A DNA stretch of 64,000 bases, from the NCBI RefSeq assembly GCF_013155125.1, contig NZ_CP053564.1, positions 6,455,501 through 6,519,500 of the forward strand, in the 5' to 3' direction. Below the pieces are notes generated by a model. The model was given only the letters and a program-made list of their open reading frames with translations. It made no database searches and was not told where the DNA came from. The stretch's first letter is position 1. Every line of letters begins with the position of its first letter. Both the position numbers and the translations under genes were made by a program. Positions 6,358 through 54,997 of the stretch are shown here, piece after piece. This stretch comes from Pseudonocardia broussonetiae (GTDB lineage Bacteria; Actinomycetota; Actinomycetes; Mycobacteriales; Pseudonocardiaceae).

Positions 6358-6458
6358 GGGTCGCCGGACCGTGTCGGGAACGGGTATCCGTGATCTACCG
6401 TGACGGGCGGGCACGGCGCGGACGGACGGGCGGGGCGGACGGGGGCGGGACCGGGGCC

Positions 6459-8411
6459 ATGGCGGAGCGCGACGGGAGCCACGGGTCGGCTGGGGAGGTC
6501 ATCGCCCGGCTGCTGCACCTGCTCGCGACGGAGGCGCCCGGCGAGGCGTTCGACCGGTTGGCCGAGGCGGTCGAGAGCGGGCCGCCCACGGCCGAGCGCG
6601 ACGAGCTGCTCGTCGCCGTGGGCCGGGCGGGCCGGGTGCGCGAGCTGCTCGACCACCGCAAGCGGCGCGAGAAGGAGACCCACGCGCTGTTCGAGACCGC
6701 GCGCGACCTGGCGTCGCTGCGCGACGTCGACGAGGTGCTCGAGGCGATCGTCCGCCGGGCCCGCCAGCTCCTGGGCACCGACGCCACGTACCTGGCGCTG
6801 CGCGATCCCGGTGCGGGCGAGGTGTACATGCGCACCACGCTCGGCACGGTGACCCGCGCGATCGAGTCGGTGCGCCAGCCGCTGGGCAGCGGGGTCGGCG
6901 GGCGGATCATCGCGACGGGCGAGCCGTTCGCGACGGCGGACTACGTCAACGACCCCCGGCTGCAGCGCGACCGGGCCGTCACCGACGCGGTCGTCGAGGA
7001 CGGCATCGTGAGCATGGTCGGCGTCCCGCTGCGGATCGGCGACCAGGTGGTGGGGGCGCTGTTCGTCGCCAACCGGTACGAGCGGGCGTTCGACCGGTCG
7101 GAGGTGGCGCTGCTGTCCTCGCTGGCCGACCACGCGTCGGTCGTGATCGAGAACTCCCGGCTGTTCGAGCACGCCGAGGCCACGGCGCGGCGGCTGCGCG
7201 GGGCGAACGAGGTGCTCGCCCACCAGGGGCGCGCGCTGGAGCGCGCCGGGGCGGCGCACGAGCAGCTGATGCCGCTGGCCCTGCGGCGCGCCGACGTCGG
7301 CGAGCTGGTCGAGGCCGTCGCCGGGATGCTCGGGGCCGTGGTCGCGGCCGTGGGGGTCGACGGGAGGGTGCTCGCCTCCTCGGGCGAGGGTCCGCTGCCC
7401 GACGACCTGCCCGCGCCCGAGCCCGGGGCGGTCGGCGCGCACGAGGCCCGGCCCGGCACGTGGACGGTCCCCGTGCGGGCCGGCGCCGAGTCGTTCGGGC
7501 ACCTCGTGCTGGTCACCGGGGAGCCCCCCGAGGCGCGGCTGGCCGGTCCCGACGTCCGCACCCTGGAGCGCGCGGCCCAGACCGCCGCGCTGCTGCTGCT
7601 CATGGACCGCCAGGTGTCGATGGCGGAGCAGCAGGTGCGCGGCGAGCTGGTCGACGACCTGCTGGCCGACCGCGAGCCCGACTGGCGCGCGTTCGAGCGG
7701 CGCGTCCGGCGCTCGGGGGGCATCGACCTGCGCGCGCCGCACACCGTGGCCGTGGTGTCGGCCGACGGCGTCGGCCGGCGCGCGCTGCTGCACGCGGCGG
7801 CCGAGCTCGCCGCCCGGCACGGCGGCCTCGCCACGGAGCACGCGGCCCGCGTCGTGCTGCTGCTGCCCGACACCGACCCGGCCGCCGCCGCGAGGCAGCT
7901 CCCCGCCGAGCTCGGCCGGGCCGTCGGCGTCCCGGTGACCGCGGGGGTGGCCGGGGTGGCGAGGTCCGCGCGCGAGGTCCGTGACCGCCACCGCGAGGCC
8001 CACCGCTGCCTGCGGCTGCTGCTCGCGCTGGGCCGCGTCGGGGAGGGGGCCGGCACCGAGGACCTGGGTGTGCTCGGACTCGTGCTCGACGGCACCTCGC
8101 CCAAGCAGCTGCGGACGCTGCTCGCCGAGTCCGTGGCGCCGCTGGAGCGCTACGACGAGGAGCACCACACGCTGCTGCTGCCCACGCTCGAGGGGTGGTT
8201 TGCCACCGGCCAGAACCCACGGGCGGCCGCGCGCCTCCTGCAGGTGCACCCGAACACCGTCTACCAGCGGCTGGACCGCATCGACAGCGTGCTGGGCCAC
8301 CGGCGCTGGCGGGAGCCCGACGGCGCGCTGACGATGCACGTGGCGCTGCAGCTGCGCAGGGTGCTCGACCACGTGCCGGTCGAGGAGCTGCTGCCGACCA
8401 CCAGCGGCTAG
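6459..8411 (+). CDS. GAF domain-containing PucR-type transcriptional regulator
   Basis: 650 residues from ATG 6459; an in-frame GTG at 6390 would add 23 Gly/Arg-rich residues and is less likely. A GAF sensor domain occupies about residues 55-215 ('ETARDLASLRDVDEVLEAIV', 'GVGGRIIATGEPF', 'SMVGVPLRIGDQVVGALFVANR'), followed by a coiled linker. The C-terminus carries the PucR helix-turn-helix ('LLPTLEGWFATGQNPRAAARLL', 'HPNTVYQRLDRID'). PucR/CdaR-type proteins usually activate nearby catabolic genes in response to a small ligand, so the preceding operon is the natural target. The next gene is a paralogue with the same architecture. Confidence 0.87.
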   Translation: MAERDGSHGSAGEVIARLLHLLATEAPGEAFDRLAEAVESGPPTAERDELLVAVGRAGRVRELLDHRKRREKETHALFETARDLASLRDVDEVLEAIVRRARQLLGTDATYLALRDPGAGEVYMRTTLGTVTRAIESVRQPLGSGVGGRIIATGEPFATADYVNDPRLQRDRAVTDAVVEDGIVSMVGVPLRIGDQVVGALFVANRYERAFDRSEVALLSSLADHASVVIENSRLFEHAEATARRLRGANEVLAHQGRALERAGAAHEQLMPLALRRADVGELVEAVAGMLGAVVAAVGVDGRVLASSGEGPLPDDLPAPEPGAVGAHEARPGTWTVPVRAGAESFGHLVLVTGEPPEARLAGPDVRTLERAAQTAALLLLMDRQVSMAEQQVRGELVDDLLADREPDWRAFERRVRRSGGIDLRAPHTVAVVSADGVGRRALLHAAAELAARHGGLATEHAARVVLLLPDTDPAAAARQLPAELGRAVGVPVTAGVAGVARSAREVRDRHREAHRCLRLLLALGRVGEGAGTEDLGVLGLVLDGTSPKQLRTLLAESVAPLERYDEEHHTLLLPTLEGWFATGQNPRAAARLLQVHPNTVYQRLDRIDSVLGHRRWREPDGALTMHVALQLRRVLDHVPVEELLPTTSG

Positions 8412-8526: not shown

Positions 8527-10494
8527 GTGTCGCTGTCCACCGACGCACCGGGACGGCTCGACGGGGCCGGCGGTGAGCTGTCGCGCATCCTGCACCTGCT
8601 CGCCGACGACGTGCCCGAGAGCACGCTCGCCGAAGCGGTGCGGGACGCCGCCTCCAGGGACGGGGCCACCGGGGACGGGGCCACCGGGGACGGGGCCACC
8701 GGGGACGGGGCCACCGGGGACGGGGCCTCCGGGGACGGGGCCTCGGCACTGCGGCGCGCCGCGCTGCGGGACGCGCAGCGGGTGCGGGCGCTGCTGGACC
8801 GGCGCGCCCGGCGCGAGCAGGAGATGCAGGTGCTCTACGAGACCGCGCGCGACCTCACGTCGCTGCGCGGCACGGACGACGTCCTCAGCGCGATCGTCGA
8901 CCGCGTCCGGCGGCTGCTGGGCTGCGCCTGCAGCTACCTCGCACTGGTCGAGCCCACCAGCGGCGACGCCCTCATGCGGGTCACCGCCGGCACCCGGACG
9001 GCGGCGATCAGGTCGATCCGCCAGCGGCCCGGGTCGGGCGTCGGCGGCTACGTGATCGAGACCGGCCAGCCGATCGCCACCTCCAACTACTGCGCGGACC
9101 CCCGGCTGCGGCGGGAGCGGCCCGTCGCCTCCGCCGTGGCGCTGGAGGGCCTCGTCGCCATCGCCGGCGTCCCGATCAAGCTCGGTCCCCGGGTGTTCGG
9201 GGCCCTGTTCGCCGCCGAGCGGCACGAGCGCGCCTTCGGGCAGAGCGAGATCGCGCTGCTGTCCTCGCTGGCCGCCCACGCGTCCGTCGTGATCGAGAAC
9301 GCGCGGCTCTACGAGCGCGCGCAGGAGGCGTCGGCCGAGCTGCGCGAGGCGAACGCCCGGCTGCACGCCCAGCGCGAGGTCCTGGAGCGGGCGGCGCGGG
9401 TCCACGAGCAGCTGATGCCCATGGCGCTGACACGCGTCGACCTGCCGCACCTGGTCGACACGCTGGCGGAGCTGCTCGACGGCACCGTCGTCCTGCTCGA
9501 CCCCGCGGGCGGTGTGCTCGCCCACGGCGCGACGCCCGGAGCGCCGCGGTTCCCCGGCCCCGTCGGGGGCGCGCGGCCGGCCGGGGCGCAGGTCCGCGTG
9601 GTCCCGGTGCGCGCGGGCAAGGACGCGTTCGGCCGGCTGCTGCTCGCCCGCAGCACCCCGATCACCGACGCCGACGTGCGCGCCCTGGAGCGCTCGGCCC
9701 AGACCGCGGCGCTGCTGCTGCTCATGGAGCGCCAGAGCTCGATCGTCGCGCAGGAGCTGCACGCCGAGCTGGTCGAGGACCTCCTCGCGGGCCGCGCCGC
9801 CGATCCCGCCGCGTTCCGGCGCCGGGCGCGGCGCCTGGGCGTGCTGGACCTGGACCACCCGCACTCGGTCGTCGTCCTCACCGCGGCGGCGCTCCCCCGC
9901 CGCCGCCTGCTCGCGGCCGCCGTCGAGTTCGCGACGGCCCGGGGCGGCGTGGTCGGGGAGCACGCCGGGCAGGTGGTGGCGCTGGTGCCCGACCCGGACG
10001 CCGGTGCGCTCGCCCGCGCCGCGGTCGACCACGTGCGCGGCGCCACCGGCAGCCCGGTCACGGCGGGTGCCGCGGGCTCCGCCTCCACCGTCGACGGGGT
10101 GCGCGCCCTGCACCGCGGCGCCGCCCGCTGCCACCGCCTGCTCCTCGCGCTCGGCCGCGAGGGCGAGGGCTCCGACATCGCCGAGCTGGGGGTGGTCGGG
10201 AGGGTGCTGGAGGACACCACGCCCGCGCAGGTGCAGCGCCTGCTCGACCGCACCCTCGGCCCGCTGCTGGCCTACGACGACCGCCACGGCACCGCGCTGG
10301 TCCCCACGCTCGACCGCTACTTCGCCGCCGGCCAGAGCCCGCCGGACACCGCCCGCGAGCTCGGCGTCCACATCAACACCGTCTACCAGCGCCTCGACCG
10401 GATCGACCAGGTGCTCGGCGGGCGCAGCTGGCGCGAGCCCCGCGGCGCGCTGGAGATGCAGATGGTGCTGCAGTTCCACCGGCTGCGCCGCTGA
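8527..10494 (+). CDS. GAF domain-containing PucR-type transcriptional regulator (paralogue)
   Basis: 655 residues from GTG 8527, which follows AGGAGG at 8513-8518. The architecture equals that of the previous gene: N-terminal helical region, GAF domain at about 90-255 ('YETARDLTSLRGTDDVLSAIV', 'GVGGYVIETGQPI'), linker ('LERAARVHEQLMPMAL'), and PucR C-terminal domain with HTH ('HINTVYQRLDRID'). The two proteins are clearly a tandem duplication. The N-terminal part contains about six repeats of a Gly-Asp-Gly-Ala-Thr unit encoded by a 15-bp minisatellite (8656-8745) that its sister lacks. Ligand and targets are unknown. Confidence 0.87.
   Translation: MSLSTDAPGRLDGAGGELSRILHLLADDVPESTLAEAVRDAASRDGATGDGATGDGATGDGATGDGASGDGASALRRAALRDAQRVRALLDRRARREQEMQVLYETARDLTSLRGTDDVLSAIVDRVRRLLGCACSYLALVEPTSGDALMRVTAGTRTAAIRSIRQRPGSGVGGYVIETGQPIATSNYCADPRLRRERPVASAVALEGLVAIAGVPIKLGPRVFGALFAAERHERAFGQSEIALLSSLAAHASVVIENARLYERAQEASAELREANARLHAQREVLERAARVHEQLMPMALTRVDLPHLVDTLAELLDGTVVLLDPAGGVLAHGATPGAPRFPGPVGGARPAGAQVRVVPVRAGKDAFGRLLLARSTPITDADVRALERSAQTAALLLLMERQSSIVAQELHAELVEDLLAGRAADPAAFRRRARRLGVLDLDHPHSVVVLTAAALPRRRLLAAAVEFATARGGVVGEHAGQVVALVPDPDAGALARAAVDHVRGATGSPVTAGAAGSASTVDGVRALHRGAARCHRLLLALGREGEGSDIAELGVVGRVLEDTTPAQVQRLLDRTLGPLLAYDDRHGTALVPTLDRYFAAGQSPPDTARELGVHINTVYQRLDRIDQVLGGRSWREPRGALEMQMVLQFHRLRR
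8656..8745 (+). repeat. 15-bp in-frame minisatellite, six copies
   Basis: Six consecutive copies of GGGGACGGGGCCACC; the last two carry CCTCC/CCTCG. They encode a flexible Gly/Asp/Ala/Thr stretch inside the second PucR regulator and are absent from its paralogue. Copy number can change without shifting the frame. Confidence 0.95.
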
Positions 10495-36586: not shown

Positions 36587-37543
36587 TCAGGGGACGAGGA
36601 CGACGCGGCCGCGGGCGGCACCATCGCGCTGGCGGGTCCAGGCGTCGGCGGCGTCGTCGAGCGGGACGGGCTCGTGGCGCACGGTCAGCTGGCCCGCCGC
36701 GGCGAAGCGGGCGACGGCCTGCACGGCGTCGCGGCGGCGGGCGGGGTCCAGGGCGTTGTTGGTGTAGCCCAGGACGTCGAGCGAGCGGCTGCGCAGCGTC
36801 GCCGAGTCGACCGTGCAGGCCGGGGCGGCCGAGCCGCCGAGGTTCACCAGCCGGCCGCCGGTGCGCAGCGAGGCGAGCGCGGCGGCGGCGGGGGCGCCGG
36901 ACAGGGGGTCGATGACGAGATCGGAGCCGCCGTCGGTGGCCGCCGCTATCCGTGCCGTCCAGTCGTCCCCGTGGAGCAGGACGGTCGCGTCGGCCCCGTG
37001 CCGGCGCGCCCGGTCGAGCGCGAACGCCGACCGCGCGCAGGCGACGACCCGCCCGGCCCCGGCCAGGCGCGCGAGCTGCACGGCCGTCTCACCGACGGCC
37101 CCGCCCGCGCCGAGCACGACCACGGTCTCCCCCGGCGCGAGCCGGCCGCGCCAGGTCAGGCACATCCACGCGGCGACGGCGGACAGCCCGAGCGCCCCGG
37201 CCAGCACCGGGTCGACGCCCGGCGGCAGCGCGACGACGTCGTCGGCGGTGACGGCGGCCCGCTGGGCCATGCTGCCGTCGCCGGGCGCCATGCCGGCGCT
37301 CGTGGCGAACCAGACGGGGGTGCCGGCGTCGAGGTCGCCGAGCGGCGCGGCGAGGGTGCCGACGCCCTGCACGCCCGGGACGTAGGGCGTGGCGGGCGCG
37401 CCGAAGTAGGAGGTGCCCGAGGCGCAGAGGAGGTCGAGCGGCGTGATCGGGGCGGCGAGGACGTCGACCAGGGTGCCCGCGGGCTCGGCCCGCTCCCCGA
37501 CCTCGGGCGGGTGGCCGGCCGTGCGGATCTCCGCGGCCCGCAT
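36587..37543 (-). CDS. MDR-family zinc-type/quinone oxidoreductase
   Basis: 318 residues of the medium-chain dehydrogenase/reductase superfamily: 'PITPLDLLCASGTSYFGAPATPYVPGVQGVGTL' (catalytic domain), then the Rossmann part 'GETVVVLGAGGAVGETAVQLARLAGAGRVVACARS'. The zinc-binding Cys/His set of alcohol dehydrogenases is missing, so it belongs with quinone oxidoreductase / enoyl reductase types using NADPH. ATG 37543 shares one base with the dioxygenase stop (TGATG). In the operon it could reduce a quinone or an unsaturated ring-cleavage product. Confidence 0.86.
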   Translation of the reverse strand: MRAAEIRTAGHPPEVGERAEPAGTLVDVLAAPITPLDLLCASGTSYFGAPATPYVPGVQGVGTLAAPLGDLDAGTPVWFATSAGMAPGDGSMAQRAAVTADDVVALPPGVDPVLAGALGLSAVAAWMCLTWRGRLAPGETVVVLGAGGAVGETAVQLARLAGAGRVVACARSAFALDRARRHGADATVLLHGDDWTARIAAATDGGSDLVIDPLSGAPAAAALASLRTGGRLVNLGGSAAPACTVDSATLRSRSLDVLGYTNNALDPARRRDAVQAVARFAAAGQLTVRHEPVPLDDAADAWTRQRDGAARGRVVLVP

Positions 37544-38508
37544 CAGCCCGCGGCCTGCAGGACGAAGTCGTAGCGCGCCTCGAGCCACGGCACGTCCGAG
37601 GTGCCGCCGTCGGGGGTGGGGCCCGGCTCCCGCGGCTCGAACGCGACGACGAGCTCGGGCTTGGTGCCGAACACGACGTCGCTGTCGAGGTACTGCGCGC
37701 CCTCCTGGAACAGGTGGGTGATCAGCGGGTGGAACCCGGGGACGTCGAGCAGGACGTGCACGTGCGCGGGGCGGTAGTGGCTGATGTCGGTGCGCGAGAC
37801 CAGCTCGCCGACCGGGCCGTCCATCGGGATCGAGTAGCCCTTGGGCGCGATGGTGCGCACGCAGTAGGTGCCGTCGGCGCGGGCGGTGTACTTCGCGCGC
37901 AACCGGGCCTCCTCGACGGGGAGCTGGGCCTCGTAGGCGCCGTCCTCGTCGGCCTGCCACACGTCGAGCACGGCCCCGCCGACGGGCGTGCCGTCGAGCC
38001 CGCGGACGGTGCCCGCCAGGTAGAGCGGCGCGCCGGGCAGGCCCTCGCTCATGTCCTCGCCGAAGCCCAGCTCGGGCGAGCCGTCGATGTGGAAGGGGCC
38101 GAGCACGGTGGCCGGCGTGGCCGACGGGTCGAGCTCGTGGTTCATCTGCACGACGAGCATCGACAGGCCGAGCACGTCGGAGGCGAGGATGAACTCCTCG
38201 CGCTTCTCGTCGCTGATCTGCCCGGTGGCGGTCAGCCAGCGGATCGCCGCCATCCACTCGGCCTCGGTGAGCCGCACCTCGCGCGCGAACTCGTGCAGGT
38301 GGCGGACCAGCGCCGTGAGGACCTCGCCGGTGCGCGGGTCGTGGGCGGTGCCCCAGCGGGCGGTGGCGGCGTCGGTGATGCTGTCGGCGGTGACGGTGTC
38401 GGCGGTGACGGTGTCGGCGGTGACGGTGTCGGCGGTGACGGTGTCGGCGGTGACGGTGCCGGCGGTGACGGTGCCGGCGGTGACGGTGCCGGCGGTGACT
38501 GGGTCCAT
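37543..38508 (-). CDS. intradiol ring-cleavage dioxygenase (catechol/hydroxyquinol 1,2-dioxygenase type)
   Basis: 321 residues. The N-terminal helical dimerisation region ('VRHLHEFAREVRLTEAEWMAAIRWLTATGQ') precedes the Fe(III) site: Tyr in 'EDGAYEAQLP' region, Tyr in 'KGYSIPMDGPVG', and His-x-His in 'YRPAHVHVLL'. 'VLGPFHIDGSPELGFGEDM' is typical of the hydroxyquinol branch. It splits a 1,2-diol ring between the hydroxyls using O2. The first ~41 residues are Thr-Val-Thr-Ala repeats from a 15-bp minisatellite, absent from normal family members. It starts one base after the citryl-CoA-lyase-like gene's stop. Confidence 0.88.
   Translation of the reverse strand: MDPVTAGTVTAGTVTAGTVTADTVTADTVTADTVTADTVTADSITDAATARWGTAHDPRTGEVLTALVRHLHEFAREVRLTEAEWMAAIRWLTATGQISDEKREEFILASDVLGLSMLVVQMNHELDPSATPATVLGPFHIDGSPELGFGEDMSEGLPGAPLYLAGTVRGLDGTPVGGAVLDVWQADEDGAYEAQLPVEEARLRAKYTARADGTYCVRTIAPKGYSIPMDGPVGELVSRTDISHYRPAHVHVLLDVPGFHPLITHLFQEGAQYLDSDVVFGTKPELVVAFEPREPGPTPDGGTSDVPWLEARYDFVLQAAG
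38386..38490 (-). repeat. 15-bp in-frame minisatellite at the dioxygenase N-terminus
   Basis: Seven perfect-length copies of GGCGGTGACGGTGTC (three with GTGCC), with degenerate flanking units. On the coding strand it encodes repeated Thr-Val-Thr-Ala-Asp/Gly at the N-terminus of the dioxygenase, before the folded domain. Confidence 0.95.
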
Positions 38509-43666: not shown

Positions 43667-44605
43667 ATGATCGTCGTCACCGGTGCCACCGGCGCGCTCG
43701 GCTCGCAGATCGTCGCCCACCTGCTCGACCGCGTGCCGGCGGAGCGGGTCGGCGTCAGCGTGCGCGACCCCGCCCGGGCCGCCGACCTCGCCGCCCGCGG
43801 CGTGCGCGTCCGCCGCGGCGACTTCACCGACCCCGCCTCCCTCGCCGACGCCTTCGCCGGCGCCGAGCAGGTCCTCGTCGTGTCGGCGAACGCCACCGGC
43901 GGGGAGGCCGTCGCGCAGCACAGGGCGGCGATCGACGCGGCGCGCGCGGCGGGCGCCGCCCGGATCCTCTACACGAGCCACCAGGGCGCGAGCGCCGGCT
44001 CGCCGTTCGCGCCGATGCCCGACCACGCGGCCACCGAGGGCCACCTGGCGGCGTCGGGCGTGCCGTTCACGGCGCTGCGCAACGGGTTCTACGCGAGCAC
44101 GGTGCCGCTGCTGCTGGGCGGCGCGCTGACGACCGGCGAGCTGGTGGCGCCCGCCGACGGGCCGGTGTCGTGGACCGGGCACGCCGACCTCGCCGCGGCG
44201 GCGGCGGTGGTGCTGGCCGGCGGTGCTGCGCTGGATGGCACTGCGCTGGACGGCACTGCGCTGGACGGCACTGGGCTCGACGGCACTGGGCTCGACGGCG
44301 TCACCCCGCCCCTGACCGCGCCCGACGCGCTCGACCTCGCCGACGTCGCGCGCCTGCTCGGCGAGCTCACAGGGCGCGAGGTGCGGCGGGTCGTCGTGGA
44401 CGACGACGAGTGGGCGGCCGGACTGGTCGCCCGCGGCGTGCCGGCGGACCGGGCGGAGATGCTCCTCGGGATGTTCCGCGCGTCCCGCCAGGGCGGCTTC
44501 GCCGCCACCGGCCCCGCACTGGCCGACCTGCTCGGGCGCCCGGTCACCCCGCTCCGCGCGCTGCTGGCGGAGGTGGTCGCACCGGGCGCCCGGGTCGCGC
44601 CGTGA
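43667..44605 (+). CDS. NAD(P)H-binding NmrA-like / atypical SDR protein
   Basis: 312 residues. 'MIVVTGATGALGSQIVAHLL' is the NAD(P)-binding start and 'VRRGDFTDPASLADAFAGAEQVLVVSANATGGEAVAQHRAAIDAARAAGAARILYTSHQGAS' is typical of NmrA / quinone-oxidoreductase-2 (QorB, YtfG-like) proteins. Active-site Tyr/Lys of classical SDRs are not obvious. The middle holds five Gly-Thr-Ala-Leu-Asp units from a 15-bp minisatellite (44228-44302), inserted in a loop. It is controlled by the divergent TetR. Confidence 0.87.
   Translation: MIVVTGATGALGSQIVAHLLDRVPAERVGVSVRDPARAADLAARGVRVRRGDFTDPASLADAFAGAEQVLVVSANATGGEAVAQHRAAIDAARAAGAARILYTSHQGASAGSPFAPMPDHAATEGHLAASGVPFTALRNGFYASTVPLLLGGALTTGELVAPADGPVSWTGHADLAAAAAVVLAGGAALDGTALDGTALDGTGLDGTGLDGVTPPLTAPDALDLADVARLLGELTGREVRRVVVDDDEWAAGLVARGVPADRAEMLLGMFRASRQGGFAATGPALADLLGRPVTPLRALLAEVVAPGARVAP
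44228..44302 (+). repeat. 15-bp in-frame minisatellite, five copies
   Basis: Copies of GCGCTGGACGGCACT; the last two begin GGGCTC. They encode Ala/Gly-Leu-Asp-Gly-Thr repeats within the NmrA-like protein. Confidence 0.93.
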
Positions 44606-47151: not shown

Positions 47152-48132
47152 CTACCCGCCCAACGCCTCCCTCAGCCGCTCGTCCCGACCCCGCCGCTCC
47201 GCCCGCAGGGCCAGCGCACCGTCCAGGTCGACCTCGACGAAGCGGGTGCGGGTGCCGGGGGCGGACTGGGCGACCAGGTCGAGGTCGCCCGACAGCACCG
47301 TCGCCACCATCATGTAGCCCCCGCCCGACACCGCGTCGCGGTGCAGCACGATCGGCTCGACGCTGCCCGGCACCTGGATCGAGCCGATCGGGTACGGGGC
47401 GTCGACGATGTTCGAGGGGTCCTGGCCGGCCCCGAACGGCGGCTCGCGGTCGACGGTCTCCAGCTCGGCGCCGGAGTAGCGGAAGCCGATGCGGTCGGCG
47501 ACCGGCGTGAGCTTCCACGTGGTGTCGAGGAACGTGGCCCGGCCGTCGGCGGACAGGCGGTGGTCGTAGAGGCCCATCATCACCCGCACCTCGACGTCCT
47601 TGCTCCACGTCGGACGCAAGTCCTCGGGCACCGAACGGCCGGCGGACGCGGAGCCCGAGCCGGACCCCGAACCGACCGGCAGCACGTCCCCCGCCGCCAG
47701 CGGCCGTCCGGAGAACCCGCCGAGCGCGCCGAGCCCGTAGGTCGAGCGGCTGCCCAGCACCACCGGCACGTCGACGCCGCCCGACACCGCGACGTAGGCC
47801 CGCGCGCCACCGGCGAGGTAGCCGAACGAGAGGACGTCACCGGCGTCGACGGCGAAGGACTCCCACTGCGGGCGCTCCTCCCCGTTGACCTTCGGCGCCA
47901 TGACCGCCCCGGTGACCGCCACGACGGCCGCCTCGGAGAACACCAGCTCCGGCCCCATGTAGACGACCTCGAGCACCGCGTCGCCCGCGTCGTTGCCGAC
48001 GAGCAGGTTGGCCGCGCGCAGCGAGTACTGGTCGAGCGCCCCCGACGGCGGGATGCCGAGGTCGTAGTAGCCGGTGCGGCCGGCGTCCTGCACCGTGGTC
48101 GAGAGTCCGGGCTTGCGCACCTCGATGCTCAT
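47152..48132 (-). CDS. pxpC: biotin-dependent carboxyltransferase / 5-oxoprolinase subunit C-like (AHS2, KipA)
   Basis: 326 residues. The AHS2 pattern is clear: 'EVRKPGLSTTVQDAGRTGYYDLGIPPSGALDQYSLRAANLLVGNDAGDAVLEVVYMGPELVF', 'AYVAVSGGVDVPVVLGSRSTYGLGALGGFSGRPLAAGDVLPVG' and 'PSNIVDAPYPIGSIQVPGSVEPIVLHRDAVSGGGYMMVATV'. With AHS1 (PxpB/KipI) it forms the carboxyltransferase-like half of urea carboxylase or of the ATP-dependent 5-oxoprolinase. A Gly-Ser run (GSGSGSGSASAG) lies in the middle. ATG 48132 overlaps the PxpB stop (ATGA). Last gene of the operon. Confidence 0.88.
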   Translation of the reverse strand: MSIEVRKPGLSTTVQDAGRTGYYDLGIPPSGALDQYSLRAANLLVGNDAGDAVLEVVYMGPELVFSEAAVVAVTGAVMAPKVNGEERPQWESFAVDAGDVLSFGYLAGGARAYVAVSGGVDVPVVLGSRSTYGLGALGGFSGRPLAAGDVLPVGSGSGSGSASAGRSVPEDLRPTWSKDVEVRVMMGLYDHRLSADGRATFLDTTWKLTPVADRIGFRYSGAELETVDREPPFGAGQDPSNIVDAPYPIGSIQVPGSVEPIVLHRDAVSGGGYMMVATVLSGDLDLVAQSAPGTRTRFVEVDLDGALALRAERRGRDERLREALGG

Positions 48133-49019
48133 CGCAGGGCCTCCAGCAGCGTCGCGTTGTAGCCGTCGGGGTCGTCGAGGAACGGGGCCAGCGCGAAGTC
48201 CACCGGGGCCTGCTTGATCCGGAACTCCTTCGCCTCCACCGAGGCGAGCAGGCTGTCGTACTCGTCGCGGTCGACGGGGCGGAACTTCACGATGTCGCCG
48301 GGACGGAAGAACACCATGAAGTCGGTGAAGTCGGGCATCGACTGCGTCGGGTCGTAGATCGGGGCCGGCGTGATCCCGAACATCTGGTACCCGCCGGCGC
48401 CGCGCACGGAGTAGATGCAGGAGAAGCAGCCGCCGTAGCCGACCGTCTGCTTCGGGGTGTCGGTGCGCGGGCGCAGGTACTTCGGTACGACGATCTGCCG
48501 GTCCCGGGGCACCATCTGGTACTTGAACGGCAGGCCGGCGACGAACCCGACCATCGAGGTGAACCACGGCGAGCCGGAGTGCGCGGCGATGAACTCGTCC
48601 TCGTCGGCGTACCCGTTGATCCGCGCGGCGTAGGCGATGTCGGTGGCGTCGGGGTCCTGGTGGCGGTCGCGGAAGCGCATCAGCGTCTCGGTGGTCCACG
48701 GATCGCGGTAGAGCACCGGGATCTCCAGGACGCGCGTGGGCAGCGCGACGTCCGACGCGTCACCCACCTGCTGCTCGAGGTCCTTGAGCTGCTTCATCAG
48801 CGTGTGCGGGTTGAGCACGTCCGGGTCGTAGCGCACCTGGTAGGACGCGTTGGCCGGGCAGATGTCGACCAGCCCGTCGGGCCGCTGCTCGCGCAGCGCG
48901 CCCGTGATCGCCATCGCCCGGAAGTTGGCCTGCAGGCTCATCTCCTCGGCGAGCTCGACGAAGATGAACTCGTCGCCGCCCCAGCTGTAGCGGGCCCCGG
49001 TCTCGGTCGTCGCCGTCAT
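48129..49019 (-). CDS. pxpB: 5-oxoprolinase subunit B / allophanate hydrolase subunit 1-like (AHS1, KipI)
   Basis: 296 residues, about 75 longer than stand-alone PxpB. Central and C-terminal AHS1 features: 'VDICPANASYQVRYDP', 'GFVAGLPFKYQMVP', 'VPKYLRPRTDTPKQTVGYGGCFSCIYSVRGAGGYQMFGITPAPIYDP' and 'FFRPGDIVKFRPVDRDEYD'. The extra length, with a 'FRDRHQDPDATDIAYAARINGYADEDEF' insert, resembles the AHS1 part of urea-carboxylase-like enzymes. The pair with PxpC should bind the carboxylated or phosphorylated amide. It overlaps both neighbours by four bases. Confidence 0.85.
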   Translation of the reverse strand: MTATTETGARYSWGGDEFIFVELAEEMSLQANFRAMAITGALREQRPDGLVDICPANASYQVRYDPDVLNPHTLMKQLKDLEQQVGDASDVALPTRVLEIPVLYRDPWTTETLMRFRDRHQDPDATDIAYAARINGYADEDEFIAAHSGSPWFTSMVGFVAGLPFKYQMVPRDRQIVVPKYLRPRTDTPKQTVGYGGCFSCIYSVRGAGGYQMFGITPAPIYDPTQSMPDFTDFMVFFRPGDIVKFRPVDRDEYDSLLASVEAKEFRIKQAPVDFALAPFLDDPDGYNATLLEALR

Positions 49020-50350
49020 AACCACTCCTCCAGCGTCCCGGTGTGGAACTCCCCCGCGGCGAACCACGGCTCGTCCAGCAGTGCGCGGTGCATCGACGTC
49101 GTCGTCGTCACGCCCTCGACCTCCAGCTCGGCCAGCGCGCGGCGCGAGCGGCGGATCGCCTCCTCGCGGTCGGCGCCCCACACGACCACCTTCGCGAGCA
49201 GCGAGTCGTAGTACGGCGACACGGCGGAGTCGGACTCCAGCCAGGTGTCGCTGCGCACCCACGGCCCGGCCGGCAGGTGCACCCGCCCGACCTTGCCGGG
49301 CTGGGGCAGGAAACCCTTGTCCGGGTCCTCCGCGCAGATCCGGAACTCCAGGGCGTGCCCGCGCACCACGATGTCGTCCTGGGCCAGGCGCAGCGGCTCG
49401 CCCGCGGCGATCCGCAGCTGCTCGGCCACCAGGTCGACGCCCGTGACGAGCTCGGTCGTCGGGTGCTCGACCTGGATGCGGGTGTTCATCTCGATGAAGA
49501 AGTACTCGCCGCTCTCGTCGTCGACGAGGAACTCGACGGTGCCGGCACTGCGGTAGCCGCACTCGGTGGCCAGCCGCACCGCGGACTCCGTCATCGCCGC
49601 CCGCACCTCGGAGCCGATGCCGGGGGCGGTGGCCTCCTCGACGACCTTCTGCCGCCGCCGCTGCAGCGAGCACTCGCGCTCGTACAGGTGCACCGCCGAC
49701 CCGCCGTCGCCCAGCACCTGCACCTCGACGTGCCGGGCCCGGCGGACGAACCGCTCCAGGTACATGCGGCCGTCGCCGAAGGCGGTGGCCGCCTCGCGCG
49801 ACGCCTGCGGGAAGCCCTTGCGCAGCGCCGCCTCGTCGTCGACGACCCGGATGCCGCGCCCGCCGCCGCCCGCCGCGGCCTTGAGCATCACCGGGTAACC
49901 GACCTCGGAGGCCGCGCGCACGGCCTCCTCCACGTCCTCGACGCCGCCGGGCGTGCCGGGCACCGTCGGCACGCCGGCGGCCCGCGCCACCTCGCGCGCG
50001 GCCACCTTGTCGCCCATCCGCTCGATCGTCGCGGCGTCGGGCCCGACGAACGTCAGCCCCGCCTCGGCGACGGCCGCCGCGAACGACGCCCGCTCGGACA
50101 GGAACCCGTAGCCGGGGTGCACGGCGTCGGCGCCGGCGTCCTTCGCCGCCGCCACCAGCGCGTCGACGACGAGGTAGCTCTTCGCCGCCGACGACGGGCC
50201 GATGTGGACCCGGTGGTCGGCGAGCCGCACGTGCGGCGCCTCGGCGTCGGCGTCGCTGTAGACGGCGACGGACTCGATGCCGAGGTCGCGCGCGGCGCGG
50301 ACGATCCGGACCGCGATCTCCCCGCGGTTGGCGACGAGCAGCCGCCTCAT
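49016..50350 (-). CDS. accC: biotin carboxylase subunit
   Basis: 444 residues, a full biotin carboxylase: 'LLVANRGEIAVRIVRAARDLGIESVAVYSDADA', 'HPGYGFLSERASFAAA', the ATP-grasp Gly-rich loop 'VMLKAAAGGGGRGIRVV', 'FFIEMNTRIQVEHPTTELVTGVDLV' and 'EFRICAEDPDKGFLPQPG'. It carboxylates biotin on a carrier with ATP and bicarbonate. It lies between a biotin carrier gene and PxpB/PxpC with four-base overlaps, and no acetyl-CoA carboxylase CT genes are nearby. This suggests it serves an AHS1/AHS2 carboxyltransferase rather than fatty-acid synthesis (inference). Confidence 0.9.
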   Translation of the reverse strand: MRRLLVANRGEIAVRIVRAARDLGIESVAVYSDADAEAPHVRLADHRVHIGPSSAAKSYLVVDALVAAAKDAGADAVHPGYGFLSERASFAAAVAEAGLTFVGPDAATIERMGDKVAAREVARAAGVPTVPGTPGGVEDVEEAVRAASEVGYPVMLKAAAGGGGRGIRVVDDEAALRKGFPQASREAATAFGDGRMYLERFVRRARHVEVQVLGDGGSAVHLYERECSLQRRRQKVVEEATAPGIGSEVRAAMTESAVRLATECGYRSAGTVEFLVDDESGEYFFIEMNTRIQVEHPTTELVTGVDLVAEQLRIAAGEPLRLAQDDIVVRGHALEFRICAEDPDKGFLPQPGKVGRVHLPAGPWVRSDTWLESDSAVSPYYDSLLAKVVVWGADREEAIRRSRRALAELEVEGVTTTTSMHRALLDEPWFAAGEFHTGTLEEWL

Positions 50351-50592
50351 CCGGCCTCGATCACCGCGACGACCTGACCGGCGTCGACCTCGTCCTCGTT
50401 CTCGACCAGGAACTCCACGACGGTGCCCGCCGCGCCGGCCTGCACCTCGTGGAAGGACTTCATGACCTCGACGAGGCAGACCGTGTCCTCCGCGCCGACG
50501 GTCTCGCCGGCGTCGGTGAACAGCGGGCTGTCCGGGTCGGGGCGGCGGTAGAACACGCCGGGGATCGGGGACACGACCTCGTGACGGGCCAT
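50347..50592 (-). CDS. accB: biotin carboxyl carrier protein (small)
   Basis: 81 residues, just the lipoyl/biotinyl domain. The biotin site is 'EVMKSFHEV' (Lys of VMKS rather than the common AMKM), preceded by 'VVSPIPGVFYRRPDPDSPLFTDAGETVGAEDTVCLVE' and followed by 'VVEFLVENEDEVDAGQVVAVIEAG'. It shuttles carboxybiotin between the carboxylase and a transferase. The gene ends in an ATGA overlap with accC and starts 11 nt after pxpA. The short length means no separate N-terminal dimerisation region. Confidence 0.9.
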   Translation of the reverse strand: MARHEVVSPIPGVFYRRPDPDSPLFTDAGETVGAEDTVCLVEVMKSFHEVQAGAAGTVVEFLVENEDEVDAGQVVAVIEAG

Positions 50593-50603
50593 CGGGGCAA
50601 CTC

Positions 50604-51326
50604 CTAGGACAGGTGGGGGGCGAGGGCGGAGCGGACGGCGGTGGCCAGCTCGACGGCGTTCGGGGTGTCGGAGTGGACGCAGACGCAGTCGGCGCGGACC
50701 GGGATCTCCGTCCCGTCGACGGCGGTGGCGACGCCGTCGGTGACCGCCCGCACCGCGCGCTCCGCCGACCGCTCCGGGTCGAACGCGTCGTGCTTGCGCG
50801 TGATGATCAGCGAGCCGTCCGGGCGGTAGTCGAGGTCGGCGTAGTACTCGGAGATGAACCCCGCGTCGCGCTTCCCCCACACCTGCTCGTGGACGGTGCC
50901 GGCCATGCCCATCAGCGGGACGCCGAACACGTCGGCGGCGTCGGCGATGGCGCCGGCGACCTCCTCGTCGCGCGCGGCCATGCCGTAGAGCGAGCCGTGG
51001 GCCTTGACGTGGTTCAGCTCCATGCCCTCGGCCCGCAGGAACCCGACGAGCGCCCCGACCTGGTAGAGCACCGCGGCCGTGAGCTCGGAGCGGTCCATCT
51101 TCATCTCGCGGCGGCCGAAGCCCTCGCGGTCGGGCAGCGACGGGTGCGCGCCGACCTTCACGCCGTGGGCCTGGGCCAGCTTCACCGTGGACGCCATCAC
51201 CGACGGGTCCGACGCGTGGAAGCCGCAGGCCACGTTGGCCAGCGTGATGAGCGGCATGAGGCCCTCGTCGTCGCCGCAGCGGTAGATCGAGAACGCCTCG
51301 CCCATGTCGCAGTTGATGTCGACCAT
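50604..51326 (-). CDS. pxpA: 5-oxoprolinase subunit A (LamB/YcsF family)
   Basis: 240 residues, the standard PxpA size. 'VDINCDMGEAFSIYRCGDDEGLMPLITLANVACGFHASDPSVM' and 'VGAHPSLPDREGFGRREMKM' contain the conserved Asp/His residues; 'HVKAHGSLYGMAARDEEVAGAIADA' and 'DCVCVHSDTPNAVELATAVR' complete the family pattern. With PxpB and PxpC it forms the bacterial ATP-dependent 5-oxoprolinase that opens pyroglutamate to glutamate. Here biotin carboxylase and carrier genes are inserted between it and pxpB, so the substrate may be another lactam or cyclic amide (inference). Confidence 0.9.
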   Translation of the reverse strand: MVDINCDMGEAFSIYRCGDDEGLMPLITLANVACGFHASDPSVMASTVKLAQAHGVKVGAHPSLPDREGFGRREMKMDRSELTAAVLYQVGALVGFLRAEGMELNHVKAHGSLYGMAARDEEVAGAIADAADVFGVPLMGMAGTVHEQVWGKRDAGFISEYYADLDYRPDGSLIITRKHDAFDPERSAERAVRAVTDGVATAVDGTEIPVRADCVCVHSDTPNAVELATAVRSALAPHLS

Positions 51327-51328
51327 CG

Positions 51329-53686
51329 CTACCCCCTGGCCTCCCGGATCGCCCGCCACACGCGCTGCGGAGTGGCCGGCATGTCGATGTGCGTCACGCC
51401 CAGGTGCGCCACCGCGTCGATCACGGCGTTCACGACCGCGGGCGACGACCCGATCGCCCCCGACTCCCCGATGCCCTTGACGCCCATCGGGTTCGTCGGC
51501 GACGGGGTGACGGTACTGCCGAGCTCGATGTGCGGCAGGTCGGAGGCGGCGGCGAACTGGTAGTCGGCGAGGGTGCCCGTGGTCGGGTTGCCGTCGGCGT
51601 CGAACGTGGCCTCCTCGAACATCGCCTGGCCGATGCCCTGCGCGATCCCGCCGTGCAGCTGCCCGGCGACGATCTCGGGGTTGACGACGTGGCCGCAGTC
51701 GTCGACCGCGACGAACCGGCGGATCCGGCTGAACCCGGTCTCGGTGTCGACCTCCATGACGCAGATGTGGGTGCCGAAGGGCCAGGTGAAGTTGGGCGGG
51801 TCGAACGCGTTCTCCGCGGTGAGCAGCGGCTCCATGCCCTCGGGCAGGTTGTCGGCCAGGTAGGCGGCCATCGCCACCTCCTGGATCGTGATGCCCGCGT
51901 CGGTGCCGCCCACGGTGAACCGGCCGTCCTCGAACGACAGGTCGTCCTCGGAGGCCTCCAGCAGGTGCGCGGCGATCGTCCGGGCCTTGTCGACGACCTT
52001 GTGCGCGGCCATGTGCACCGACACCCCGCCGACGGGGAGGCTGCGCGAGCCGTAGGTGTCGCGGCCGAACGGGGCGACGGCGGTGTCGCCGTGCAGCACC
52101 TCGACGTCGTCGGGGTGCACGCCCAGCGCGTCGGCCGCGATCTGCGACCACGCCGTCTCGTGGCCCTGCCCGTGCGGCGAGGTGCCCGTGACGACCTCGA
52201 CCTTGCCGCTGACCAGCATCCGGACCGTCGCGGCCTCCCAGCCGCCGCTCTGCAGCCGCACGCCCGCCGCGACCTTCGACGGCGACAGCCCGCCGCTCTC
52301 GGTGAAGTTGCCGATCCCGATGCCGATCTGGACGGTGTCGCCGGACTCCCGGCGCTGCTTCTGCTCCGCGCGCACGGCGTCGTAGTCGACCAGGCGCATC
52401 GCCTCGCGCATGCAGGGCTCGTAGTCGCCCGAGTCGTACATGACGCCCGACGGGACGGTGCGGTTCTCCAGGAACTTCGGGTGCAGGTTGATCAGCCGCA
52501 CCTCCGCCGCGTCCATCCCCAGCTCGCGCGCCAGGTCGTCCATGATCCGCTCGTGGGCGTAGGCGGCCTCCGAGCGCCCGGCGCCGCGGTAGGCGTCGGT
52601 CGGGGTGAGGTTGGTGAACACGCCGCGGCAGGTGAAGGAGTAGGACCCGAAGTCGTAGAGCCCGCAGTAGGTGAACGCGCCGAACACCGCGATGCCCGGG
52701 GTGAGCAGCTGCAGGTAGGCGCCCATGTCGGCGAGCAGGTCCACCTTCATCCCGAGGATCTTGCCCTCGCGGGTGGCGGCCACGGCCATGCGCTGCACCT
52801 GGCCGCGGCCGTGGGTGGTGGCGACGTGGTGGTCCGAGCGGGTCTCGTTCCAGCGCACCGGCTTCTTCAGCCGGCGGGCGAGCGCGAGCGCCAGCGCCTC
52901 CTCGGCGTAGACGTTGAGCTTGGCGCCGAACCCGCCGCCGACGTCAGGCGCGATCACGCGCAGCTTCGAGTCGGGCATGCCGACGACCATGGCGCCGATG
53001 TCGCGCAGGAAGTGCGGCACCTGCGTGGAGGAGTAGATCGTGAAGCCGCCGCCCACCGGGTCGGGGCTGACGAGCACCGCGCGCGGCTCCATCGGCGAGG
53101 GCAGCACGCGCTGCTGCAGGTACCGGCCCTCCACGACGACGTCGGCCTCCGCGAACGCCGCGTCGACGTCGCCGGTGGCCAGCGGCCAGGTGTAGCAGTG
53201 GTTGGTGCCGAGGCCCTCGTGCACGAGCGGGGCGCCCGGCTCCAGCGCGGCCTCGACGTCGAACACGCCGGGCAGCGCCTCGTACTCGACCTCGATCAGG
53301 CCGAGCGCGTCCTCCGCGGTGGCCGCGTCGACGGCCAGCACCACCGCGACGCCGTCACCGACGTGGTTGACCTCGTCGACGGCCAGCGGCGGGTGCTCCG
53401 GGATCTTGATGTCCTCCGTGACCGGCCACCCGCAGGGCAGCCCGATCGCGAACTCCGACGCCAGGTCGGCGCCGGTGAACGCGGCGACGACGCCGGGCAG
53501 CGCCAGCGCCGCGGAGAGGTCGACCGAGGTGATGCGGGCGTGCGCCAGGGGGCTGCGCAGGACGGTGAGGTGCAGGGCGCCGGGCATCGCGATGCCGTCG
53601 ACGAAAGTGCCCTGCCCGGTGATCAGCGCGGCGTCCTCGCGACGCAGGATGCTCTGCCCGACGTACTTCTCGGTGGTGGTGGTCAC
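51329..53686 (-). CDS. xanthine-dehydrogenase-family molybdopterin-binding subunit (CoxL-like, form II)
   Basis: 785 residues, the length of CO-dehydrogenase large subunits. 'VGQSILRREDAALITGQGTFVDGIAMPGALHLTVLRSPLAHARI' starts it, 'VIAPDVGGGFGAKLNVYAEE' near 255 binds the cofactor, and 'AYRGAGRSEAAY' near 365-375 is the form II signature in place of the CODH AYXCSFR loop. Glu in 'GIGESGAIGS' near 741 is the catalytic base. Such enzymes hydroxylate carbon next to N in heterocycles or aldehydes. The FAD (CoxM) and [2Fe-2S] (CoxS) subunits are absent here. It begins the operon with pxpA two bases later. Confidence 0.88.
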   Translation of the reverse strand: MTTTTEKYVGQSILRREDAALITGQGTFVDGIAMPGALHLTVLRSPLAHARITSVDLSAALALPGVVAAFTGADLASEFAIGLPCGWPVTEDIKIPEHPPLAVDEVNHVGDGVAVVLAVDAATAEDALGLIEVEYEALPGVFDVEAALEPGAPLVHEGLGTNHCYTWPLATGDVDAAFAEADVVVEGRYLQQRVLPSPMEPRAVLVSPDPVGGGFTIYSSTQVPHFLRDIGAMVVGMPDSKLRVIAPDVGGGFGAKLNVYAEEALALALARRLKKPVRWNETRSDHHVATTHGRGQVQRMAVAATREGKILGMKVDLLADMGAYLQLLTPGIAVFGAFTYCGLYDFGSYSFTCRGVFTNLTPTDAYRGAGRSEAAYAHERIMDDLARELGMDAAEVRLINLHPKFLENRTVPSGVMYDSGDYEPCMREAMRLVDYDAVRAEQKQRRESGDTVQIGIGIGNFTESGGLSPSKVAAGVRLQSGGWEAATVRMLVSGKVEVVTGTSPHGQGHETAWSQIAADALGVHPDDVEVLHGDTAVAPFGRDTYGSRSLPVGGVSVHMAAHKVVDKARTIAAHLLEASEDDLSFEDGRFTVGGTDAGITIQEVAMAAYLADNLPEGMEPLLTAENAFDPPNFTWPFGTHICVMEVDTETGFSRIRRFVAVDDCGHVVNPEIVAGQLHGGIAQGIGQAMFEEATFDADGNPTTGTLADYQFAAASDLPHIELGSTVTPSPTNPMGVKGIGESGAIGSSPAVVNAVIDAVAHLGVTHIDMPATPQRVWRAIREARG

Positions 53687-53764: not shown

Positions 53765-54997
53765 TCAGCGGGAGATCGAATCGAGGGCTCCTCGCACCTT
53801 GTCCACGAGCAGGTCGAGGTGCTCGGTGGTCGCGGTGAGCGGCGGGGAGAAGCCGAGCGCGCTGGTCATCGGCCGGATCAGCACGCCGCGCTCGCGGGCG
53901 GCGCGGGACACGACGGCCGGGGCGACGGACGGGTCGAGCTCGAGCGCGCCCAGCACCCCGGTGCCCCCACGCACCTCCGTGACCAGCGGGTGGTCGGCCA
54001 GCGTGCCGAGCGCCGCGGCCAGCTCGCCCTCCAGCACGAGGGCGCGGGCGAGCAGGTCCTCGCGCTGGAGGATCTCGATGTTCGCGAGCGCCGCGGCGCA
54101 GGCGGTGGGGTGCCCGCCGTAGGTCGCCCCGTGGCGGAACGGGGCGGCGCCGTCGGCCCAGAACGGCTCGGCGACGCGCTCGTGCACGACCACCCCGCCC
54201 AGCGGCACGTACCCGCTCGTGACGCCCTTCGCGAACACCACGAGGTCGGGCACCACGCCGTAGCGCTCGATCCCGAACCACGAGCCGAGCCGGCCGAAAC
54301 CGCAGATGACGGCGTCGACGACGAGCAGCACGCCGTGCCGCGCGCACACCTGCGCCACCGCCTGCACGTACCCCTCCGGCGGAGGCAGCACCCCGCCCGC
54401 GCCGATCACCGGCTCCACGACGAACGCGGCGACGCGGTCGGCGCCCAGCCGGGTGATCTCGGCGTCGAGCGCCGCGGCGTCGTCGTGCGGGACCTGCACG
54501 ACGTCGGGCACGAACGGCCCGGCGAGCCGGTTGGCCGGCATGCCGGCCAGCGCCGTGCCGAACCCGTGCGTGCCGTGGTAGCCGTGCTCGCGGCTGATCA
54601 GCACGGTCCGCTCCGGCGAACCGGTGCGCGCCCAGTACTCGCGGGCCAGCTTCGCGGCGGTGTCGATGCCGTCGCCGCCGCCGCTGCCCAGGAACACCTT
54701 CGCGCCCGGCACCGGGGCCAGCGCGGCCAGCCGGTCGGTCAGCTCGCGCGCCGGCTCGTTCGTGACGTCGCCGAAGGTCTGGTAGCTGGCCAGGGCCGTC
54801 ATCTGGGCGTGCACGGCGTCGGCGATCTCGCGGCGGCCGTGCCCGACGTTGACGCACCACAGGCTGGCCGTGGCGTCGAGGTAGCGGGAGCCGGCGTCGT
54901 CGAAGACCCAGACGTCCTCCCCGCGGGTGAGCACGAACTCGGCGCCGCGGACGGCGCCCATCGCGGCGAACGGGTGCCAGAACGCGGAGTCGCCCAT
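53765..54997 (-). CDS. class III PLP-dependent aminotransferase
   Basis: 410 residues. 'FWHPFAAMGAVRGAEFVLTRGEDVWVFDDAGSRYLDATASLWCVNVGHGRREIADAV' and 'VFLGSGGGDGIDTAAKLAREYW' are class III starts; 'VVDAVICGFGRLGSWFGIERYGVVPDLVVFAKGVTSGYVPLGGVVV' holds the Asp that contacts PLP and Lys256, which forms the Schiff base. It moves an amino group between an omega-amino compound and a keto acid. It lies 78 nt upstream of the CoxL operon on the same strand, so it may provide or consume an amino acid linked to that pathway. Confidence 0.9.
   Translation of the reverse strand: MGDSAFWHPFAAMGAVRGAEFVLTRGEDVWVFDDAGSRYLDATASLWCVNVGHGRREIADAVHAQMTALASYQTFGDVTNEPARELTDRLAALAPVPGAKVFLGSGGGDGIDTAAKLAREYWARTGSPERTVLISREHGYHGTHGFGTALAGMPANRLAGPFVPDVVQVPHDDAAALDAEITRLGADRVAAFVVEPVIGAGGVLPPPEGYVQAVAQVCARHGVLLVVDAVICGFGRLGSWFGIERYGVVPDLVVFAKGVTSGYVPLGGVVVHERVAEPFWADGAAPFRHGATYGGHPTACAAALANIEILQREDLLARALVLEGELAAALGTLADHPLVTEVRGGTGVLGALELDPSVAPAVVSRAARERGVLIRPMTSALGFSPPLTATTEHLDLLVDKVRGALDSISR

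Follow-up and report, generated by a model that had tools for sequence, protein, structure and literature searches.

What would a molybdenum hydroxylase subunit be doing at the head of a row of genes for a biotin-dependent carboxylase and a presumed ring-opening hydrolase? The question is raised by a stretch of 64,000 nucleotides from Pseudonocardia broussonetiae (contig NZ_CP053564.1, positions 6,455,501 to 6,519,500), here called the window, in which a six-gene row occupies 47152–53686 on the minus strand in the order coxL, pxpA, biotin carboxyl carrier protein (BCCP), biotin carboxylase, pxpB and pxpC. This order had been given in an initial annotation and is confirmed by the Pfam and NCBIfam profiles with which the row proteins were assigned to families. 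The reading that we favour, at a probability of roughly 0.45, takes the row for a biotin-dependent lactam hydrolase built of separate subunits, which probably converts 2-pyrrolidinone to γ-aminobutyric acid (GABA), with a molybdenum-dependent oxidation step beside it; it stays near to the idea first proposed. The reading is drawn from sequence comparison, and starts from direct observations of the gene content of the row, its conservation, the clade formed by its CoxL and the orphan status of that subunit.

All genes of the row lie on the minus strand. The CoxL-type molybdenum-binding large subunit (51329–53686, 785 aa) has the Pfam domains MoCoBD_1, MoCoBD_2 and Ald_Xan_dh_C and carries the motif AYRGAGR. 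It is followed by PxpA of the LamB/YcsF family (50604–51326, 240 aa; Pfam LamB_YcsF, 301 bits), the presumed ring-opening hydrolase, by BCCP (50347–50592, 81 aa, motif EVMKS; NCBIfam PRK07051, 116.9 over a cut-off of 87) and by biotin carboxylase (49016–50350, 444 aa; NCBIfam PRK12833, 693.1 over a cut-off of 686). PxpB (48129–49019), with carboxyltransferase subdomains C and D of the urea carboxylase type, is enlarged, as had been noted, with 296 aa set against a PxpB model of 202 positions, and PxpC (47152–48132, 326 aa; Pfam CT_A_B, 290 bits) supplies subdomains A and B. A class III aminotransferase gene overlooked by the initial annotation (53765–54997, 410 aa; Pfam Aminotran_3, 275.7 bits) lies upstream of coxL on the same strand and may be a seventh member. 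From this gene down to pxpC the junctions are gaps of 78, 2 and 11 bases and then three overlaps of 4 bases, so the genes described earlier as nearly all overlapping do so at three of the five junctions of the row. The aminotransferase has a close match (at least 70% identity) at 6 of 22 related loci and belongs to the row less surely than the other six genes. Its best solved relative is 6gwi, 'Putrescine aminotransferase' (E 3e-90), a weak guide to substrate because class III transaminases resemble one another.

By profile score, the carboxyltransferase pair resembles urea carboxylase more than 5-oxoprolinase, as the initial annotation had held. Both PxpB and PxpC of the window score better with the urea carboxylase profile, whereas the other set in the same genome prefers the 5-oxoprolinase profiles. 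For PxpC the NCBIfam urea carboxylase model gives 242.1 and the PxpC model 186.2, a preference reversed in the genome's other PxpC part (158.4 and 198.7). The best solved relative of PxpC is the urea carboxylase of K. lactis, the same enzyme type is nearest to the model of PxpB, and PxpB shares about 30% identity with the fused carboxyltransferase frames found in its phylum. All four parts of urea carboxylase (biotin carboxylase, carboxyltransferase A/B, carboxyltransferase C/D and biotin carrier) are encoded here as separate proteins. The split chains score 242.1, 118, 542.6 and 28.4 separately against the one-chain urea carboxylase equivalog, whose cut-off is 1303.85 bits, and since no split protein could attain a cut-off set for one chain, this comparison speaks to form more than to function. 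The biotin carboxylase aligns over residues 2–441 with its best match among solved bacterial enzymes of that type, and the 81-residue carrier aligns with E. coli BCCP across its EAMKM site, the lysine of which we take to be the biotinylated residue.

Conservation shows that the row order is not chance. Of the 22 loci from named genomes that are related to the row (21 in Pseudonocardia or Pseudonocardiaceae, one in Acidimicrobiia), 19 have all five cassette genes, from pxpA to pxpC, in the order of the row, and contig ends truncate the other three. CoxL is present at 16 of the 22, at one of them cut by a contig end; it is absent at L011 and L013, a diiron enzyme takes its place at L016 (Pseudonocardia endophytica), and the remaining three are the contig-cut loci. 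The nearest named PxpB matches are those of Pseudonocardia oceani (99%) and P. hydrocarbonoxydans (94%). A gene for a PucR-type regulator occurs at 9 of the 22 loci, and not beside the window row. Across the phylum, PxpB matches were found in 85 of 396 genomes, 21 of them (the window's own included) at E ≤ 1e-80. One locus was taken from each of the 20 other genomes at this threshold, and 18 of these belong to a family (f19) that contains Rubrobacter; the PxpB of L097 is identical to that of R. radiotolerans. Here the order differs, with PxpB, PxpC, PxpA, BCCP and CoxL in a row and the biotin carboxylase divergent. CoxL is found at 11 of the 18 loci, contig ends lie nearby at five, and other genes stand there at two (L098 and L100). 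The two loci outside this family, L090 and L107, have no CoxL. At L092:4318-6737 the linked CoxL appears as two overlapping frames, which may be frameshifted or misread. In a further genus of Pseudonocardiaceae (g269), CoxL, biotin carboxylase, BCCP, PxpC and PxpB form a row from which PxpA is separated by a divergent PucR-type gene.

The genome of the window itself holds four carboxyltransferase A/B loci, counting the row. One, at 1.69 Mb (L029), consists of an Nramp-type transporter, PxpA and a fused PxpBC, which is a 5-oxoprolinase set apart from the row; no biotin genes were seen in its gene list. Another, at 6.05 Mb (G000:C1:6048325-6061000; L027, L028), holds the five-gene cassette a second time, as a copy 61–80% identical and with its own biotin carboxylase and BCCP. 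Upstream of this copy lie genes for a toluene-monooxygenase-like diiron enzyme, TmoB- and MmoB-type proteins, a Rieske protein and a reductase, and it is followed by a tautomerase-type gene and bioB; the layout of L016 is similar, with the diiron enzyme in the CoxL position. The fourth locus, whose gene list shows no biotin carboxylase, holds a PxpB/PxpC-like pair.

Is the molybdenum subunit a partner of the cassette or only a neighbour? A CoxL match of at least 60% identity occurs in 34 of 297 genomes of the organism's own family, its own included. We fetched 17 such loci, some from the same strains as the 22 above, and three contrast loci at 57–59%: all five cassette genes were present at 17 of 17 loci with CoxL at about 60% or more, and at none of the three contrast loci. 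A tree built from 32 chosen rows places all 20 linked CoxL sequences in one clade (support 100/99), whose neighbours are three CoxL with S (iron-sulfur subunit) genes and L134, which lacks such a gene nearby. The cassettes are more diverged than the subunit. In genus g278, CoxL is 75–76% identical to that of the window and the cassette proteins 39–62%; for the Rubrobacter family the figures are 61–77% and 44–62%, from full-length matches. One CoxL type accompanying diverged cassettes in differing gene orders is hard to explain other than by a working link, so the sequence evidence supports a functional linkage of the molybdenum subunit to the cassette. A second CoxL-type large subunit without a nearby S gene lies about 6 kb past the end of the window (L057:4586-6970; G000:C1:6525289). 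It was considered as a member of the linked clade and excluded, being 46% identical to the window CoxL and outside the clade in the tree.

The initial annotation spoke of a molybdenum hydroxylase; CoxL is an orphan large subunit rather than a complete three-subunit enzyme. No gene with Fer2_2, the iron-sulfur subunit domain, was found within 100 kb of the window CoxL, and a protein search with references from the organism's own genome gave no S or M subunit match in the window. Whole-genome searches covered the S subunit, and the window and fetched loci were searched for both S and M. Of the 13 other large subunits of this genome, 12 lie within about 3.5 kb of a gene for an iron-sulfur subunit; six further genomes show such pairing for 17 of 18 large subunits besides the linked CoxL, and for none of their six linked CoxL. 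A neighbouring iron-sulfur gene is therefore lacking for 7 of 7 linked CoxL as against 2 of 31 other large subunits (Fisher p ~3e-6, with shared ancestry ignored). At protein level, neither S nor M was found beside any linked CoxL of the fetched loci; of the contrast loci, L136 and L137 gave matches and L134 did not, and L124 holds a separate complete molybdenum hydroxylase set. At 1.52 Mb of the window's own genome (L058) stands an S gene that has no large subunit; it was considered as a partner of the row and rejected, as the gene list there shows no link. CoxL nevertheless looks intact, since it keeps MoCoBD_1, MoCoBD_2 and, aligned with CO dehydrogenase, the KGIGES motif, presumably the site of the catalytic glutamate in molybdenum hydroxylases. 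Fer2_2 is present in 28 of the 28 genomes searched, so borrowing of a subunit from elsewhere in the cell is possible, and CoxL probably borrows both its iron-sulfur and flavin partners.

The five-gene cassette extends well beyond the phylum and is not a new assembly. PxpB matches were found in 565 of 72,556 plasmid records, and close PxpB relatives are encoded by Bacillota (Halobacillus, Brevibacillus and others). We examined 11 proteobacterial plasmid cassettes among 25 matches listed; one plasmid was unannotated and was read from its frames, where genes of the Cox, Gab, biotin, regulator, monooxygenase and cassette types were searched for. PxpA, BCCP, biotin carboxylase, PxpB and PxpC occur in this order in all 11, with a LysR gene upstream, and their annotations read variously 5-oxoprolinase, acetyl-CoA carboxylase (with a fatty-acid-synthesis tag) and allophanate hydrolase. 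The cassette is thus an already known arrangement under scattered names; what is new here is its link with an orphan molybdenum subunit clade and its GABA context. One record, from Diaphorobacter, has the cassette, three transporter genes and then the M, S and L genes of a molybdenum hydroxylase of another subfamily, 29% identical to the window CoxL. Elsewhere the flanks hold gabT and gabD (one of 11, adjoining the cassette on a Ruegeria megaplasmid), HyuA/HyuB (two of 11) or hut genes (one of 11); the other six show no molybdenum, gab, Hyu or hut genes within 7–10 kb, in a plasmid gene table that is incomplete.

Flanking genes in the chromosomal relatives bear on both the cofactor and the substrate. 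Counted over the 18 loci of the Rubrobacter family, with queries from one of them (L092), a BioY-type gene lies near ten (Pfam PF02632 in the one scanned), a GabT-type gene near eight and a GabD-type gene near three; a bioB-type gene is also found at L026. The bioB or BioY genes beside some relatives, the cassette order kept in another phylum and the biotin-free 5-oxoprolinase set elsewhere in the genome together indicate that the biotin subunits belong with the carboxyltransferase, as first proposed. With the NCBI models, the L092 GabT scores 574.8 (cut-off 506.65) and its succinate-semialdehyde dehydrogenase 658.5 (cut-off 646.35). Arginase-family neighbours of the Rubrobacter-family cassettes exceed agmatinase cut-offs in three of three scanned, and L103 has a GABA-permease-like gene that falls below its cut-off. 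These GABA and agmatine genes favour a small saturated lactam over an aromatic version of the N-heterocycle that the initial annotation had suggested as the molybdenum substrate, although HpaB-type and diiron monooxygenase genes at other loci point towards the latter.

The nearest precedent is fungal. LamA is a urea-carboxylase-like protein, and we know of no molybdenum subunit in the Aspergillus LamA/LamB system. The lamA and lamB genes of Aspergillus nidulans are described as serving lactam catabolism under AmdR, with the omega-amino acid genes gatA and gabA (PMC8016842). A predicted fungal urea carboxylase gene has also been reported in one segment with a LamB gene (PMC8675399), and in the fungal urea carboxylase the sub-domains lie on a single chain (PMC3073912). 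The row resembles this system in that a PxpA of the LamB/YcsF family stands beside urea-carboxylase-like parts, and differs in having the biotin carboxylase, BCCP and each of the two carboxyltransferase parts as a protein of its own. Taken together, the flanking genes, the aminotransferase match and the Aspergillus precedent favour the conversion of 2-pyrrolidinone to GABA.

If the row is such a lactam hydrolase, the biotin carboxylase would charge the 81-residue carrier with a carboxyl group from bicarbonate and ATP, and PxpB with PxpC, as a urea-carboxylase-type carboxyltransferase, would pass it to the ring amide and so activate the lactam. PxpA would then hydrolyse the activated ring, giving an N-carboxy amino acid that would lose CO2 to leave an omega-amino acid. 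With 2-pyrrolidinone as the most likely lactam the product would be GABA, which an aminotransferase and a semialdehyde dehydrogenase could carry on to succinate. For CoxL, the most likely role by family resemblance would be to hydroxylate a cyclic imine, for example 1-pyrroline from putrescine, at its C=N carbon, yielding the lactam, probably with iron-sulfur and flavin subunits borrowed from another molybdenum hydroxylase of the cell. A further-reaching version, in which a stand-alone molybdenum large-subunit lineage is dedicated to the lactamase, so that a polyamine-derived cyclic imine is oxidised by CoxL and the lactam then carboxylated and opened, in an ATP-dependent route from putrescine or pyrrolidine to GABA, with CoxL either sharing iron-sulfur and flavin subunits or working without them, strikes us as rather doubtful.

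The proposed assembly differs from each of the known systems that it recalls. Compared with urea carboxylase (K. lactis, 3va7 and 5i8i), its subunits are separate and PxpA stands in place of the amidase partner. It shares PxpA, PxpB and PxpC homologues with the PxpABC 5-oxoprolinase, to which it adds biotin carboxylase and carrier, and from which its PxpB, below the NCBI cut-off, and its PxpC depart in favouring urea carboxylase. Like the CoxL-type molybdenum hydroxylases related to aerobic CO dehydrogenase it keeps the molybdenum-binding domains and KGIGES; unlike aerobic CO dehydrogenase it has AYRGAGR in place of AYRCSFR, so that the cysteine is not kept, and no S or M genes nearby. Neither caprolactamase CapAB nor the hydantoinase/oxoprolinase HyuAB uses biotin, to our knowledge. 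These share with the row an ATP-dependent lactam opening, predicted in the latter, and the caprolactamase is described as not similar to PxpABC (PMC8453981). In searches of a literature consisting mostly of open-access articles, no listed title or opening of an abstract presented the cassette as a biotin-dependent lactamase or told of its molybdenum-subunit link; passages from PMC8683493, PMC11001197 and PMC9219837 contain nothing on the cassette, and PMC3073912 mentions neither lamA nor lactam.

Several observations weigh against the lactam hydrolase with its molybdenum step. CoxL is missing at L011, L013, L098, L100, L090 and L107, and the second cassette copy of the same genome is preceded by the diiron enzyme instead. 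Among the plasmid cassettes, 10 of 11 have no molybdenum enzyme within 7–10 kb on each side, and 10 of 11 have no gabT or gabD within the stretch inspected; from these the molybdenum step appears optional, and substrates may differ between cassettes. That the molybdenum enzyme is part of the system, as first claimed, is supported by the single CoxL clade accompanying diverged cassettes and not by the plasmids. The window itself contains no GabD-type match, its only GabT-type match is the aminotransferase (33%), and a close match to the aminotransferase was not found at L006, one of the nearest relatives. An HpaB-type monooxygenase gene lies near the linked CoxL at five of five g269 loci (L118–L122), with a flavin-reductase gene beside it at L118. 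In genome G076 the linked CoxL has another pair, of large and iron-sulfur subunits, about 9 kb away. Finally, a route from 1-pyrroline to GABA through the lactam costs ATP, which aldehyde oxidation would not.

Could the cassette instead act on a urea-like or cyclic ureide substrate such as urea, guanidine or hydantoin, with PxpA replacing allophanate hydrolase? The urea carboxylase type of the carboxyltransferase speaks for it. So do the HyuA/HyuB and hut genes beside plasmid cassettes, the urease genes that Pseudonocardia sp. MH-G8 carries in divergent orientation to its coxL row (L009, 2840-5115; alpha subunit by NCBIfam), the agmatinase near Rubrobacter cassettes, an enzyme that releases urea, and an amidase between BCCP and CoxL at L093 of the Rubrobacter family, though this last scores below allophanate hydrolase cut-offs. 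Yet no amidase-type allophanate hydrolase is annotated beside the ten annotated plasmid cassettes, where the name falls on PxpB and PxpC only, and none was noticed by eye beside other cassettes, for which no search was run. In published work, moreover, LamB/PxpA is tied to lactam and 5-oxoproline use (PMC8453981, PMC13274462, PMC8016842), and we hold the ureide reading to be unlikely. That CoxL oxidises an aromatic N-heterocycle such as a pyridine or quinoline, and that the cassette carboxylates and opens the resulting lactam, seems to us quite unlikely, even though molybdenum hydroxylases of its family oxidise such rings. Quinoline 2-oxidoreductase (474.9 bits) and 6-hydroxypseudooxynicotine dehydrogenase (466.8) rank among the solved relatives of CoxL, after the large chains of CO dehydrogenase, and both the HpaB-type genes and the diiron monooxygenases of L016 and the second copy would suit an aromatic substrate. 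It is the GABA and agmatine genes flanking the Rubrobacter and Ruegeria cassettes that tell against it, as does the lack of a recurring ring reductase in gene lists inspected by eye, with no dedicated search run.

Two further alternatives concern the cassette proteins themselves. That the row is a second, biotin-using 5-oxoprolinase we consider very unlikely. PxpA does exceed the cut-off of the NCBI PxpA subfamily model (NF003814, 276.7 against 226), and falls below those of three equivalog models, like the other PxpA of the genome. The PxpC cut-off of 500 does not separate the two sets, as both the window PxpC (186.2) and the genome's other PxpC part (198.7) lie under it, so that only the PxpB cut-off and the relative scores count against a 5-oxoprolinase. 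The window PxpB, however, scores 75.9 under its curated cut-off of 145.55, which the other set passes with 150.8, and that set, with its Nramp-type transporter, presumably can serve this function already. Most improbable of all is that the biotin carboxylase and BCCP are ordinary acetyl-CoA carboxylase subunits lying between the pxp genes by accident. NCBI models do give them that name, and a long-chain acyl-CoA carboxylase complex of M. smegmatis solved with a bound PxpB/PxpC-like pair (PDB 9yx5) is a precedent for contact between the two kinds of protein; but both the Pseudonocardia loci and the plasmid records hold the same five genes as a group, the overlaps are of 4 bases, and the second copy in the genome has a biotin carboxylase and BCCP of its own.

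Elsewhere in the window, two adjacent proteins at 6390–8411 (673 aa) and 8527–10494 (655 aa) both have GAF, GGDEF-like and PucR-type helix-turn-helix domains, and are perhaps tandem paralogous regulators. Short in-frame repeats occur in two other proteins, at 37543–38508 and 43667–44605: one has TVTADTVTAD close to its N-terminus, and the other has repeats of the ALDGTGLDG type.

If the cassette is indeed one biotin-dependent lactam hydrolase, many automatic annotations would be wrong, and a new type of lactam-opening enzyme would become available. The CoxL clade that accompanies it raises the question of how the large subunit of a molybdenum hydroxylase works without its usual partner genes.

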